This document shows, piece by piece, positions 5,092 through 48,290 of a stretch of DNA of 64,000 nucleotides. Below the pieces are notes generated by a model. The model was not told where the DNA came from. It searched no databases and worked only from the letters and a program-made list of their open reading frames with translations. The position numbers and the translations under genes were made by a program. Within the stretch, counting starts at the first letter, position 1. Each line of letters starts with the position of its first letter. The stretch covers positions 62,001-126,000 of the forward strand of contig CAMCXF010000005.1 of NCBI GenBank assembly GCA_945883235.1, written 5' to 3'. The stretch is from Phenylobacterium deserti. GTDB lineage: Bacteria; Pseudomonadota; Alphaproteobacteria; Caulobacterales; Caulobacteraceae.

Positions 5092-5135
5092 TTTCCTTCC
5101 AGGGTCGATCGTGGCCTGACGGTCCGCGAACCCTG

Positions 5136-5240
5136 GAGCCTGTCCGTTTCAGATGGAGTCATCTGAAACGGATAAACAGGCTCGATTTCATATGTTTAGA
5201 GCACGACGGGCGCTTGAACCGGTATCCACTGCCGTGCTCT
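5136..5240. repeat. Palindromic intergenic repeat, copy A
   Basis: The first 48 bases (5136-5183) form a dyad starting GAGCCTGTCCGTTTCAGATG and ending with its reverse complement around a short loop. They differ from copy B at 48187 by one base. The second part (about 5195-5240) is another stem (AGAGCACG paired with CGTGCTCT) around CTTGAACCGGTATCCACT, and is more diverged between copies. It resembles the bulk extragenic palindromes of alphaproteobacteria. Confidence 0.8.
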
Positions 5241-9059: not shown

Positions 9060-9170
9060 CCGTCATCCCGGACGCAGCGCAGCGGAGATCCGGGACCCAG
9101 GGGCCCAGCGCACCGCCCTGGGTCCCGGCTCTTCGGCCTGCTGACGCAGGCCTGCGGCCGGGATGACGGG
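9060..9170. repeat. Palindromic repeat with CCGTCATCCCGG ends
   Basis: The ends are CCGTCATCCCGG and CCGGGATGACGG in inverted orientation. Inside, CCGGGACCCAGG pairs with CCTGGGTCCCGG around a short loop. This long nested dyad is a common alphaproteobacterial extragenic element. Confidence 0.75.
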
Positions 9171-12926: not shown

Positions 12927-15900
12927 TCACGCCCTACCAAAGCCACCGCCGCCGGGCGTCTCGATCTCGATCATGTCATCAACCTTCACCACAACGGAGA
13001 AACAGCCGGAAAGTTCAGTAACTTCGCCCGACGCTGCGATCAAACGCTGGGTGCCCACCAATCCGGGCGAGCCGCCCCTCAAGCCCTGGGGCGCATGAAT
13101 ACGTCGTGAACCCAGCAGGGCGGCCTCCATCGGTGCCAGGAACCGGATCCGTCGTAGCGAGCCATCACCACCTCGACGAATGCCGTGGCCGCCAGAACCC
13201 TTCCGCACGCTGAATGCCTCGACCCGAACCGGGAAACGTCGCTCCAGGATCTCAGGATCCGTGAGCCGGGAGTTGGTCATGTGAGTCTGAAGCGCGCTGG
13301 GGCCGTCCGTGGTTGCTGTCGCACCCCCGCCGCCGCAGATGGTTTCGTAGTACTGCCGGGTCTCGTCGCCAAAGGTGAAGTTGTTCATGGAGCCCTGGCT
13401 GTTGGCCATCACCCCCAGAGCTTCATAGAGTGCGTCAACCACATGCTGGCTGGTCTCGACATTGCCCGCGACCACAGCGGCTGGAAAATGCGGCGCCAGC
13501 ATCGAACCGTCCCGGGTCAGGATCCTGAGCGGCTCAAGGCACCCTGCGTTCAGGGGTATGTCGTCGTCGACCAAGGTGCGGAACACATAGAGCGCCGCCG
13601 CATCGACAATGGCGGATGGGGCGTTGAAGTTCGATGTCAGCTGATCGGATGAGCCGGAGAAGTCGAGGGTGGCCTCACGCGCCGCCGCATCCACGGTGAT
13701 CTTCACCGCGATCTCGCCGCCGCAGTCCATCGGAACCCGCGCCTCGCCGTTGGACAGGCGGTCCAGCGCGCGGCGGACACATTCAGCGGCGTTGGCCTGC
13801 ACAAATCCCATATAGCGGGCGACGACCCCGGCACCATGGCTCCGGATCATCTCGGCGACCGCCGTGGCACCGGCCTGGCACGAGGCAACCTGGGCTTTCA
13901 GGTCGGCGATGTTGCGATCCGGCGCGCGGGCTGGATATGGACCTGCAGCCAGGGCCGTGCGGACTTCGGGGTCCAGAAACCGCCCCTCAACCATGATCGG
14001 CAGGGCGTCCAGCAATACGCCTTCCTCGCCGAGGGAGGTTGAAAACGGCGGCATGGACCCCGGCTGGATACCCCCTACATCGGCATGGTGGCCCCGCGCT
14101 GCGACGTAGAAGGCCGGTGCGGTTGCCGGTCCCGCCATGAACACCGGCATGACCACAGTGATATCCGGCAGGTGGGTGCCGCCGGCATAGGGGTTGTTCA
14201 GCGCAAAGGCCTGGTCTGGCTTCAGGTCAGGATGACGATTCCTGACAGCGCGCACGCTGGCACCCATCGAGCCCAGGTGAACCGGCATGTGCGGTGCATT
14301 GGCCACCAGACCTCCATCTGCGTCGAACAGGGCGCAGGAGAAATCGAGCCGCTCCTTGATATTGACCGACTGGGCCGTGCGCTCCAGCGCCGCACCCATC
14401 GCTTCCGCCACACCCATGAAGCGACGATTGAACAGCTCGAGCGTTATGGGATCAGGCTTGTCGATGGCAATCGATGTGCGCTGCGCCTGCATCGTTCGCG
14501 AGAGGTGGATCAGACCGTCCAACCCGGCGATGGCGCGCCAGCCGGGCAGCAAGGCGATCTGGGTATCGTTTCGAACGATCAATGCGGGACCATCGGCGAC
14601 GATCAGGGTGTCCGCAGCGATCACGGTCGCGGCGCGCCATTTCCCGTGGGCGAACATCCGAAAGCCCTCTCGCTCTTGCGGGGAGAGAGTTGGGAGTGGG
14701 GGTGTCGGCTCAGGGTTTCCGGTCTGGACAGCCCCACCCCCAACCCCTCTCCGCAAGGGGGAGGGGAGCGCGCTGACTTCCACTTCCACAGCTGCGATCA
14801 GGATCGTGCGCTCGGGCTCTACAAAGCCGAATAGTCTCTGGTGTCCGGCTTCAAAGGTAGCCTGTGCGCTGGCCGGCTCTGCAAACGCCACGGGCAATTC
14901 CGCATCTGCCCCGTCGTAGCGCAGCCGCAGGGTGCGACGGATTTCGCCGACCTCAGCACCCTGAACGGCCATGTCGGCCCGGGCCAGGATTTCAAGTTCG
15001 GTCAGGGTGGCCTCAGCAGCAACAAGTCCGGCAACACCTAACGGCGCATCGACACCGGCAAGTCGCAAAGCGGTAACCTCGGCCTGACCGATCCCCCAGG
15101 CCGACAGGACACTGCCGTAGCGGGGGCAGAGCACCTCATCCACGCCCAGCGTCTCGGCAGTCTGGCAGGCGACCTGGCCGGCAGCGCCGCCAAATGCCAC
15201 CAAGGCGTGATCGCGTGGGTCGAACCCCCGCTCCGTAGAGATGCGGCGCACCGCCTGCGCCATCTGCTCTACGGCCACCGCCACGAACCCATCTGCGGCT
15301 GTTTCAACATCCTGCGCACCCATGGCCGATGCCAGCTCTGCCAGGCGAGCGCGACTGGCATCAGGGTCGAGGGCCGCGTCGCCGTTCGGGCCGAACACTT
15401 TCGGAAAATCCCGGGGATCGATCCTGCCCAGCACCAGATTGGCGTCCGTGATGGTCGCAGGCCCGCCCCGGCCATAGCAGGCCGGTCCAGGATCTGCACC
15501 GGCGCTAGCGGGACCGGACCGCGCGCGCATGCCGTCAAAGGTCAGGATCGAGCCGCCGCCTGCCGCCACGGTTTCCACATCCAGCATCGGCGCGCGCAGT
15601 TTCACTCCGGCGACCTTGGCGGTGTCTCGCCGTTCCAGCTGACCGGCGTAGCGGCAGACATCGGTTGATGTGCCGCCCATGTCGAAACCCAGAACCATCG
15701 CTGTCCCAGCGGATACGGCGGTTCGTGAGACACCGACTACGCCGCCTGCGGGTCCGGACACCACGGCGTCGCGTCCGCGGAATCCCTCTGCCTGAACCAG
15801 GCCGCCGGCCGAGGTCATGAAGTAGAGAGGTGCGCCGGCGACCGCACTGGTCACCCGGCGCACATAGGCCTGCAGAACGGGGGTCAGATAGGCGTCAGCG

Positions 15901-16526
15901 ACCGTAGTTTCGGCGCGTGGGATGAAGCGCGGCAGAGGTGAGACTTCCGAACTTAGCGCGACAAACTCGAATCCGGCTGCCCGCGCGATTTCGCCCGCCC
16001 GATGCTCATGGGCCGGATTGAGGTCTGAGTGCAGAAAGGCGATGGCCGCTGAGGTGAACCCTGCCGTGACGGCGGCCACAAGACGTGTCCGAAGGGCGAG
16101 TTCGTCCAACGACCTTACCACTGATCCGTCGGCCGCCATCCGCTCATCAGCTTCCAGGACGCCGGAATAGAGGGGCTCCGGCTTGGCGATGTTCAAAGCG
16201 AACAGGTCCGGCCGCGACTGGTCACCGATGGTCAACGCATCAGCGAACCCGGCGGTTGTCACAAACAGCGTCTTGGTACCCTGGCGTTCCAGAAGCGCAT
16301 TGGTGGCCACGGTGGTGCCCATCTTGATGGCCTGTACGCGATCCGCAGGAAACGGCACGCCGGGCGCGACGCCAAGGATGCGTCGCATCGCCTCTACGGC
16401 GGCGTCAGGATAGGCCGACGAAGCCGAGAGCAACTTCAGCGAAACCTCGCCGTGATCGTCTCCATGACCGATCACATCGGTGAACGTGCCCCCGCGATCG
16501 ATCCAGAATGTGAAACGTCTGTCCAA
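12927..16526 (-). CDS. Hydantoinase/5-oxoprolinase A-B fusion with in-frame repeat insertion
   Basis: This 1199-residue cytoplasmic protein joins HyuA and HyuB as in ATP-dependent 5-oxoprolinases, which open cyclic amides such as 5-oxoproline or hydantoins. The HyuA half (1 to about 580) starts [19 protein letters not shown] and contains [19 protein letters not shown] with the ATP-binding acetate-kinase-like fold. The HyuB half (about 665-1199) holds [28 protein letters not shown]-like [17 protein letters not shown], and a Gly-rich C-terminus ending [10 protein letters not shown]. Residues about 587-621 are encoded by an inverted repeat and read as low-complexity Pro/Gly/Arg sequence. The frame is kept, so the enzyme may still work. 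A dyad at 16540 precedes the start. Confidence 0.88.
14665..14766. repeat. Palindromic repeat inserted inside the oxoprolinase gene
   Basis: The left arm CCCTCTCGCTCTTGCGGGGA onward (14665-14702) and the right arm CCCCACCCCCAACCCCTCTC onward (14732-14766) are imperfect inverted copies around about 29 bases. The unit resembles intergenic palindromes of many alphaproteobacteria, but here it is translated without a stop inside a conserved gene, between the HyuA and HyuB domains. Confidence 0.8.
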
Positions 16527-28121: not shown

Positions 28122-29153
28122 CTATGCGTCTTCGGTTTCCGAGGGGCCTGGACCTTCGCCAGCTTCAACCGCCTTCGGTTTGCGACGGCGAACACGGACC
28201 GGCTTTTCGACATCGGCGTCTGCTGCCGCGGCCGACGCGGGAACGGGGCGTGCTTGCAGGAACGCCGGCGCATGGCTGGCGCCGCCGTCAGAATCGCGCA
28301 GCATGGCTCCGCCGCGGGGTTCGACCGCCTCTGGAGCCGCAGCCTGCACGACAGGCTGCGGATCACGCTCGACGCGTTCCGGACGATCATTCCGGTCCTG
28401 GCGGTCGTAGCGCTCACGACGCGGCTCTTCGCCCTCCGTGCGAGGCGTATCGGCGCGAGGTGCATCAGCGCGGGGCCGGTCATCGCGAGGCCGGTCGTCG
28501 CGGGGTCTGTCGTCACGCGGGCGGTCATCGCGATTGCGATTGCGGTCACGGTTATTGTCACGCCCGTAGCGGTCGCGGTTGCCGCCTTCATTGCGCGGGC
28601 GATCATCGCGAGGCCGATCATCACGTGGACGGTCATCGCGAGGTCGTTCGTCGCGGGGTCGTTCATCGCGCGGCCGCTCGTCACGGGGGCGATCTTCCCG
28701 GGGCTGCCAGTCATTGCGATTGCGCGGCTGTTCACGAGGTTCATTGTCCTCGGCTGGGTCGCCGGCCGCCGTTGCGGCCTCATCGGCGGCCAGAGCCTGG
28801 GCCTGACCGGTTTCGTCTTCGAAATCGATGTCATAGCCCGATGAAAAGTGGTCGCGTCCCAGAATTTCGCTGGCCGGCCGGTTTGGCTGGATGGCGCGAA
28901 GCAGGCGGAAATAATGTTCAGCGTGCTGGAGATAGTTTTCCCCCAGGACCCGGTCACCGGCGGCGTTCGCGTCACGCGCCAGCTGCTGGTACTTTTCGAA
29001 AACGTGTTGCGGATTGCCCCGCACCTTGACGCCTTCGGGACCGTTGGAATCAAACGCCCGGTTGGCATTTTGCGTTGGCTTCGTATTGCCGCCGCTACTG
29101 CCACCACTGCGATTGCGCCCACGTTGGCGCTTCATACCTTTGAAATCTCTCAT
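28122..29153 (-). CDS. DUF4167 protein with arginine/aspartate repeat region
   Basis: The 343-residue protein starts MRDFKGMKRQRGRNRSG; a second ATG at 29135 is possible. The DUF4167 domain covers about 1-100, with VRGNPQHVFEKYQQLARDAN and NYLQHAEHYFRLLRAIQ, a basic helical domain thought to bind RNA. Residues about 140-235 consist of repeated RPRDER or RPRDDR heptad-like units, plainly seen in the DNA as tandem copies (28460-28730). The C-terminus has KPVRVRRRKPKAVEAG. It is conserved beside prmC and prfA in Caulobacterales, suggesting a translation-linked role, which is an inference. Confidence 0.85.
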   Translation of the reverse strand: MRDFKGMKRQRGRNRSGGSSGGNTKPTQNANRAFDSNGPEGVKVRGNPQHVFEKYQQLARDANAAGDRVLGENYLQHAEHYFRLLRAIQPNRPASEILGRDHFSSGYDIDFEDETGQAQALAADEAATAAGDPAEDNEPREQPRNRNDWQPREDRPRDERPRDERPRDERPRDDRPRDDRPRDDRPRNEGGNRDRYGRDNNRDRNRNRDDRPRDDRPRDDRPRDDRPRADAPRADTPRTEGEEPRRERYDRQDRNDRPERVERDPQPVVQAAAPEAVEPRGGAMLRDSDGGASHAPAFLQARPVPASAAAADADVEKPVRVRRRKPKAVEAGEGPGPSETEDA

Positions 29154-48137: not shown

Positions 48138-48186
48138 GGACGACAGATATCAGCTTCGTCCGGTCCAACGCCAGCACTGGACGCTA

Positions 48187-48290
48187 GAGCCTGTCCGTTT
48201 CAGATGGACTCATCTGAAACGGATAAACAGGCTCGTTCTTCATACATTTGGCGCGTGACGGGCGCCTGAACCGGTATCCACTTCAGGCTC
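48187..48290. repeat. Palindromic intergenic repeat, copy B
   Basis: The first 48 bases match copy A at 5136 except for one base in the loop. The following part is diverged: A keeps an AGAGCACG stem, whereas B retains only GACGGGCG, CTTGAACCGGTATCCACT-like core sequence and a GGCTC end. It lies between fkbM and the arsC-like gene. Confidence 0.8.

Follow-up and report, generated by a model that had tools for sequence, protein, structure and literature searches.

The closest described counterparts of the element reported here are the Rickettsia palindromic elements (RPEs), which excerpted passages of three papers (PMC2229807, PMC10969869, PMC6649704) present as palindromes of about 100–150 bp that form several families, lie in frame within conserved genes, are tolerated there and lose their repeat identity with time. 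According to an excerpt of one of these sources, nearly half of the RPEs of R. conorii are found in genes, and another passage of the same source, a 2024 review of prokaryotic MITEs, regards RPE-like protein evolution as conceivable in other prokaryotes (PMC10969869). The bacterial MITEs ERIC/RU-1 and Correia/NEMIS (107 bp) are described in an excerpt of PMC2229807 as short dispersed repeats that have open frames and sometimes form in-frame fusions. Relatives of Caulobacter carry palindromes of about 110 bp, the CcrM-associated intergenic repeats (CIRs), which in the passages excerpted are reported to be absent from genes, to have stops in all frames and to contain GANTC (PMC2229807). Finally, an excerpt of PMC6649704 describes long inverted repeats in conserved coding genes of nematomorph mitochondria, which are perfect and in which both arms encode conserved residues. 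Searches of a mainly open-access collection of papers listed no report of palindromes repeatedly occupying one linker in the Caulobacteraceae.

The element that we investigated is located in a window of 64,000 nucleotides (the whole stretch of DNA that was analyzed), within a gene for a HyuA–HyuB (hydantoinase/oxoprolinase) fusion. The relevant features are:

12927..16526, minus strand: HyuA–HyuB fusion of 1199 aa with a TTG start (open frame, Pfam)
14663..14768, minus strand: class B palindromic element, 35 residues in the frame of the gene (fold, genomic copies, stop-free frames)
14669..14706, plus strand: left arm of the hairpin, with mismatches (centroid structure)
14727..14763, plus strand: right arm of the hairpin, with mismatches (centroid structure)
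14592..14789, minus strand: variable linker, residues 580–645, from VEVEV.. to ..VAD before GPAL (columns of the orthologue alignment)

The element is an imperfect palindrome of about 106 bp that occupies residues ~587–621 of the open frame of 1199 codons, in agreement with the claim of an earlier, sequence-only reading that an inverted-repeat element lies inside the coding region and leaves the frame intact. The DNA fold of the palindrome had a z of −2.70, with 2 of 200 shuffles equally stable, and the hairpin of the linker exceeded codon shuffles (p 0.01). BLAST found the family to which it belongs (class B) at seven more places in the genome of the window, all with E 1.3e-6 or better and the best with 8.2e-26. 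Given these seven further places and a hairpin above codon shuffles, the palindrome is not a chance hairpin. The window had no match in Rfam at gathering scores, and an ungapped hairpin scan of it (score 13 or greater) returned three other hairpins and missed the element, which scores 12.

The sequence-only reading had erred in placing the element at the HyuA–HyuB junction. Pfam assigned Hydant_A_N to residues 7–184 of the fusion, Hydantoinase_A to 204–486 and Hydantoinase_B to 692–1198. The stand-alone HyuA chain 6yra_A aligned to residues 4–665, and structure comparison in a fold search, which served solely to place the two halves, put the HyuA half at 1–678 (5svb_B) and the HyuB half at 689–1199 (the stand-alone HyuB chain 6yra_B). 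As the HyuA alignments run past the element, it lies inside the HyuA half, in a loop, and ends at least 45 residues before the end of that half. In an AlphaFold2 model of the fusion (mean pLDDT 87.1, 34 sequences) the element is predicted to sit between a strand at 575–586 and strands from 623 onward. Residues 590–613 are the sole long stretch with a pLDDT below 50, a second one, 721–723, being three residues long, and this bears out the proposal that the position is a tolerant one.

How does the element compare with the known systems? Like the RPEs, with which we compare them by description from the excerpted sources, the palindromes considered here are long, fall into several families and lie in frame inside conserved genes, and the likeness to in-gene Rickettsia palindromes that the earlier reading had drawn stands: the window element is in frame, belongs to a mostly intergenic family and occupies a tolerant site. 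The hosts, however, are distant from Rickettsia and free-living, and the elements are GC-rich. Like a MITE, the window element is itself an inverted repeat and so has terminal inverted repeats, but a direct repeat (5 or longer) was found close to the ends in 0 of 74 copies (the ends, set by BLAST, being uncertain by a few bases), and TA ends were not found beyond a few. In contrast to the CIRs, it lacks GANTC and is open in five of its six frames; among copies of the families, GANTC was present in 3 of 30 of class B, 0 of 18 of class A and 18 of 26 of class D. Dispersed intergenic palindromes are also a property of REP/BIME sequences with their RAYT, but neither the window element nor 29 of 30 class B copies contain the GTAG/CTAC motif, and CGTC/GACG occurs in 6 of the 30. 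Y1_Tnp, the sole transposase family sought, had matches in 4 of 10 genomes, 3 of them over the cut-off. RAYT was rejected as the mobilizer, as Y1_Tnp had no match in the copy-rich genomes G136 and G199 or in the window genome (G000).

Each of classes A–E proved to be dispersed in a genome whose own linker carries it. Ten chosen genomes were used per search (G047 in the first, with G199 in its place afterwards), and the matches listed, which count both strands of palindromes as well as partial matches, were at least 70 for class A in G136; at least 51, 23 and 14 for class B in G136, G199 and the window genome; at least 94, 43, 32 and 26 for class C in G172, G241, the window genome and G256; at least 74, 73 and 60 for class D in G136, G196 and G199; and at least 11 and 6 for class E in G172 and G098. 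The family carried by a linker was not always the commonest in its genome. Two genomes without a linker element had 12 (G006) and 1 (G140) matches in total, but G098, a carrier, had only 11. Between three and six of the six frames are free of stops in class B copies (five or six in 23 of 30), and between one and four in copies of classes A and D; with several frames open, in-frame survival is plausible.

The family was held by the sequence-only reading to be of a type normally found between genes, and this is borne out: six of the seven other class B places in the window genome lie at or beyond the edges of genes, as judged from open frames and Pfam, with acyl-CoA dehydrogenase genes among the neighbors and one place directly upstream of a phosphoglycerate dehydrogenase-type gene. 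The seventh is inside the gene for an Lhr-type helicase, where it is read in the same frame and amounts to 28 residues. Mapping of the copies against genes, which had been proposed as a check, gave a divided picture. Two of the eight class B places in the window genome are in genes (HyuAB and lhr), a share above that in a census of dispersed copies of classes A, B and D in G136, G199 and G196, in which, with HyuAB copies outside the set, only 1 of 80 was flagged as being in a gene (L439, a doubtful case). For R. conorii the excerpt of PMC10969869 gives nearly half, against the 1 of 80 flagged in this census. The census test recognized 8 of 9 known in-gene copies, the control that it missed being the gene of the window. 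The one flag that a looser coding-flank test raised among the 80, L467, showed a wrong-strand pattern and was rejected as an in-gene copy. An earlier pass over 111 copies yielded 15 gene-like rows: eight in HyuAB, one in lhr, two from AsnB (one AsnB copy), one in E2 and three doubtful ones.

We then turned to the linker in orthologous genes, the nearest of which come from Phenylobacterium and from Caulobacteraceae or alphaproteobacterial bins. The alignment held 114 HyuAB sequences. Of these, 88 (the window included) share at least 65% identity with the window protein when the linker is disregarded and were taken as orthologues; the remaining 26, below that level, formed an outgroup composed of a Caulobacteraceae paralogue group and more distant homologues. 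Of 80 loci in a first listing, 33 duplicated newer rows and 13 were added to the table; left out were the partial L054, L055, L056 and L061, the frameshifted L050 and 29 others, mostly of ~50% identity. From a second listing 100 places were taken, most partial matches and many rows of ~53–55% being left out. L050 (1501–5177), the HyuAB gene of Phenylobacterium aquaticum, loses its frame toward the 3′ end, at a distance from the linker.

A palindromic element was assigned to the linker in 53 of the 88 Caulobacteraceae orthologues, worn copies included, and none in the other 35. The labels were A in 23 cases, C and D in 8 each, E in 6, B in 4, F in 2, and G and H in 1 each, and the carried elements come from five dispersed families (A–E) and perhaps three more (F, G and H, classes that rest on peptide pattern or inspection by eye). 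Translated in the frame of the gene, class A reads HPREGGDP..LGPRLRGDER, class B SPLRGGVGGG..PSPQGGG (the window), class C SPLAGEGG..TDEGS..LLPQGEK, class D PPLHGEG..APPHEGEG and class E SPHSWGEGG..PLPPGDGGRG, with rarer peptides besides. Classes first set by peptide pattern were revised by blastn for L022, L118 and L134 and by eye for L148, L149, L157 and L170. Thus, unlike what is described for the RPEs, different families repeatedly occupy the same linker of orthologous proteins.

Two tests that make no use of peptide patterns agree with the labels. Copies outside HyuAB were matched by the linkers of 49 of the 88 orthologues and by none of the 26 outgroup and paralogue rows, using blastn at E<=1e-3 against a small library for which 5 of the 49 matching rows had themselves supplied queries. 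A hairpin exceeding codon shuffles was present in 46 of the 88 orthologues and in 1 of the 26 outgroup and paralogue rows; of 476 control windows taken from other parts of the genes of 30 orthologues, 2 had one. Seven rows classed by pattern had no significant hairpin, and four unclassed rows had one. The linkers of all 88 orthologues were open, with no stop codon.

Does the element add its own length to the protein? The sequence-only reading had it adding about 35 residues, and the element does encode about that number, but the median linker was 69 aa (40–85) with an element, 54 aa (42–75) without one and 57 aa (49–60) in the outgroup and paralogue rows (element versus element-free, Mann–Whitney p 4.6e-9, ignoring relatedness). 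The net difference is thus ~15 aa, so that in HyuAB the gain in length falls short of what the element itself encodes. It seems that insertion was accompanied by loss of native residues or that the element-free linkers are worn elements. All 88 orthologues have a linker of some kind, but they do not share an equally long one of unrelated DNA, as the sequence-only reading would expect of an ancestral region: the element-free linkers are shorter and the carriers hold several different palindromes.

On a FastTree phylogeny computed with the linker columns omitted, the labels required 31 changes of state, or 16 when presence alone was counted. On strongly supported branches alone, class A changed at least 9 times, class C at least 7 and class D at least 5, many forks of the tree being weak. 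The labels were clustered (31 changes, against a mean of 49.5 for shuffled labels), a pattern expected of insertions that pass to descendants for some time. A five-member clade with a support of 100 had linkers labeled D, D, A, D and A. Recombination between species, by moving the linker together with its element, could inflate the count of changes.

Once in place, the segment evolves rapidly. In 11 pairs of related species that share an element class (pairs that overlap, some rows being in several), pN/pS was 0.38–0.83 in the linker versus 0.12–0.22 elsewhere in the gene. Synonymous divergence of the linker was within a factor of two of that of the remaining gene in 10 of the 11 pairs, L027/L126 being at 0.13 versus 0.32. 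Three pairs with element-free linkers also gave a high pN/pS, 0.37–0.52, so that the linker itself accounts for part of the fast evolution. The palindromes of the Caulobacteraceae differ from those of the Nematomorpha, as excerpted, in that their arms are imperfect and encode a fast-evolving linker. We note that the linker of L027 contains nested palindromes, a second pair of arms lying outside the class D element with a core that resembles that of L126.

Three other conserved proteins were found to contain elements. That of the Lhr helicase is located between DEAD (39–210) and Helicase_C (306–404), and that of asparagine synthetase (AsnB) between GATase (46–160) and the synthase domain (269–546), both in the window genome; that of the E2 component of pyruvate dehydrogenase lies between the lipoyl (4–76) and E3-binding (145–180) domains in G241. 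Matches came from 94, 52 and 54 genomes, respectively, and for each protein we listed 30 loci, picked as stop-free frames and for the most part those with the highest scores, a selection that biases the rows toward sites filled like that of the query. Twenty of the 30 Lhr rows had a long insert of one of several kinds and ten a short site; 12 of the 20 inserts matched a library element, most of them weakly and one being that element itself, and one short-site row, L348, looks like a class B remnant. The AsnB linker was a constant 43–44 aa in 12 of 30 rows and 57–84 aa in the other 18, the long linkers reading as classes D, G, H, A or B or as partial elements; library matches were found for 12 of these 18 (one being itself) and for none of the 12 short ones. 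Eight of the 20 Lhr inserts and 6 of the 18 from AsnB were assigned by peptide pattern or by eye. In these two proteins, whose empty sites are short or of constant length, insertion is evident. In E2 the linker was the usual Ala-Pro-rich one in most rows, with a strong match to class C in 3 of 30 and a weak match to some class in 4 of 30.

Close pairs of rows had one member filled and the other empty (L329/L346, L333/L347 and L401/L414) or the two filled differently, as for L386 (class D) and L388 (class B). The frame in which a family is read also differs between proteins: class A reads HPREGGDP in HyuAB and IPPKAETQ in AsnB, and class D reads PPLHGEG in one protein and LPFMGRD in another, which argues that no single favored peptide is required. 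As an aside, the AsnB linker of L403 is of element-free length and has a small TTCCTCCCC..GGGGAGGAA hairpin, which could be the remnant of a deleted element or a new seed.

We favor, with a probability of roughly 0.8, a process in which dispersed palindromes insert in a nearly neutral manner, are tolerated and presumably translated at flexible linkers, and then decay, are deleted and re-colonize the site. Genomes of the Caulobacteraceae hold several unrelated families of GC-rich imperfect palindromes of ~100–160 bp, which probably spread by replication. Nearly all of the copies examined are outside genes; some have nevertheless landed in genes, with selection probably filtering such landings, and those identified occupy linkers or loops of a flexible kind in four conserved proteins. 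Where length and frame suit, a landing would add a disordered peptide, as the open frames suggest. The segment is weakly constrained, its amino acids diverging several times faster than those of the remaining protein, and the hairpin decays. By comparison with their relatives some linkers look like deletion remnants, in an order of events that we infer. The site, still permissive, would then be re-taken by the same or another family, and neighboring species thereby come to differ in the palindrome that they carry there; the window copy is a class B case. It is improbable, in our judgment, that the matter goes further and that palindromes regularly supply the linkers of HyuAB, Lhr, AsnB and E2, with insertion favoring these sites and sometimes being beneficial.

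Could the linker instead attract palindromes through its DNA or RNA (for example, by CTCCC/GGGGAG microhomology), rather than merely allow those that arrive to survive? The single linker is filled in a very high share of orthologues (53 of 88) next to the rarity of in-gene copies in the census (1 of 80 flagged), the left and right edges fall, by eye, within a few codons of each other across families, and some short sites (L403 and L348) hold small CTCCC..GGGG hairpins, which may themselves be deletion remnants. Targeting is nonetheless doubtful, as the site is used by several families whose ends are dissimilar, a target sequence common to the four genes is not evident by eye, and target duplication was seen in 0 of 74 copies. 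Decidedly less likely still is that the hairpin is kept for a function in the mRNA, slowing translation or tuning expression of the two halves. That 46 of the 88 orthologues have one exceeding codon shuffles would fit such a role, but the families are unrelated, the hairpin is absent from the other 42 orthologues and from 25 of the 26 outgroup and paralogue rows, and it has been lost in some carriers (the seven labeled rows without a significant hairpin; L104 and L113 score 8 and 6). Moreover, on the coding strand the window hairpin is followed by no more than TTT and is thus no intrinsic terminator.

Two further explanations have hardly any probability. One is that hyuA and hyuB were once separate and were fused by reading through an intergenic palindrome. 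The mostly intergenic location of the elements would suit an old spacer, but the position of the element inside the HyuA half contradicts it; the 26 outgroup and paralogue rows are also single frames over both halves, 25 of them having no hairpin in the linker, and close relatives hold different families at the site. The other is that the insert remains untranslated and is removed by translational bypassing, as an excerpt of PMC6649704 describes for palindromic elements of yeast mitochondria. Bypassing would not require a fitting frame or length, and yet all 88 orthologue linkers are free of stops.

As we analyze it, the known part of the process of nearly neutral insertion would be its RPE-like behavior, and the new part would be the repeated and differently filled occupancy of homologous linkers. 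RPE-like behavior now appears among free-living bacteria of which many species have been sequenced, with sites in the same proteins that are filled repeatedly and differently. This amounts to a natural experiment in which rates of gain, decay and loss could be measured, as well as which positions tolerate some 40 arbitrary residues, and it allows one to ask whether selfish DNA supplies linkers. For annotation there is a warning, that such segments are not conserved protein.

Finally, we note other repeats in the window. Positions 5130–5230 and 48181–48282 are two copies, each of ~100 bp, of another palindrome (TCCGTTTCAGATG..CATCTGAAACGGA), which has GAGTC or GACTC (the GANTC motif) near its loop and resembles the described CIR repeats of Caulobacter. 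Positions 805–864 and 1247–1305 form an inverted pair of palindromic elements, the second of which is a class C match (G000:C5:63244-63300). Positions 28415–28708 contain two blocks of repeats with a period of 15 bases, and positions 9060–9169 a hairpin (CCGTCATCCCGGACGCAG..CTGCGGCCGGGATGACGG) that by eye resembles the class F element carried by L148 and L157.
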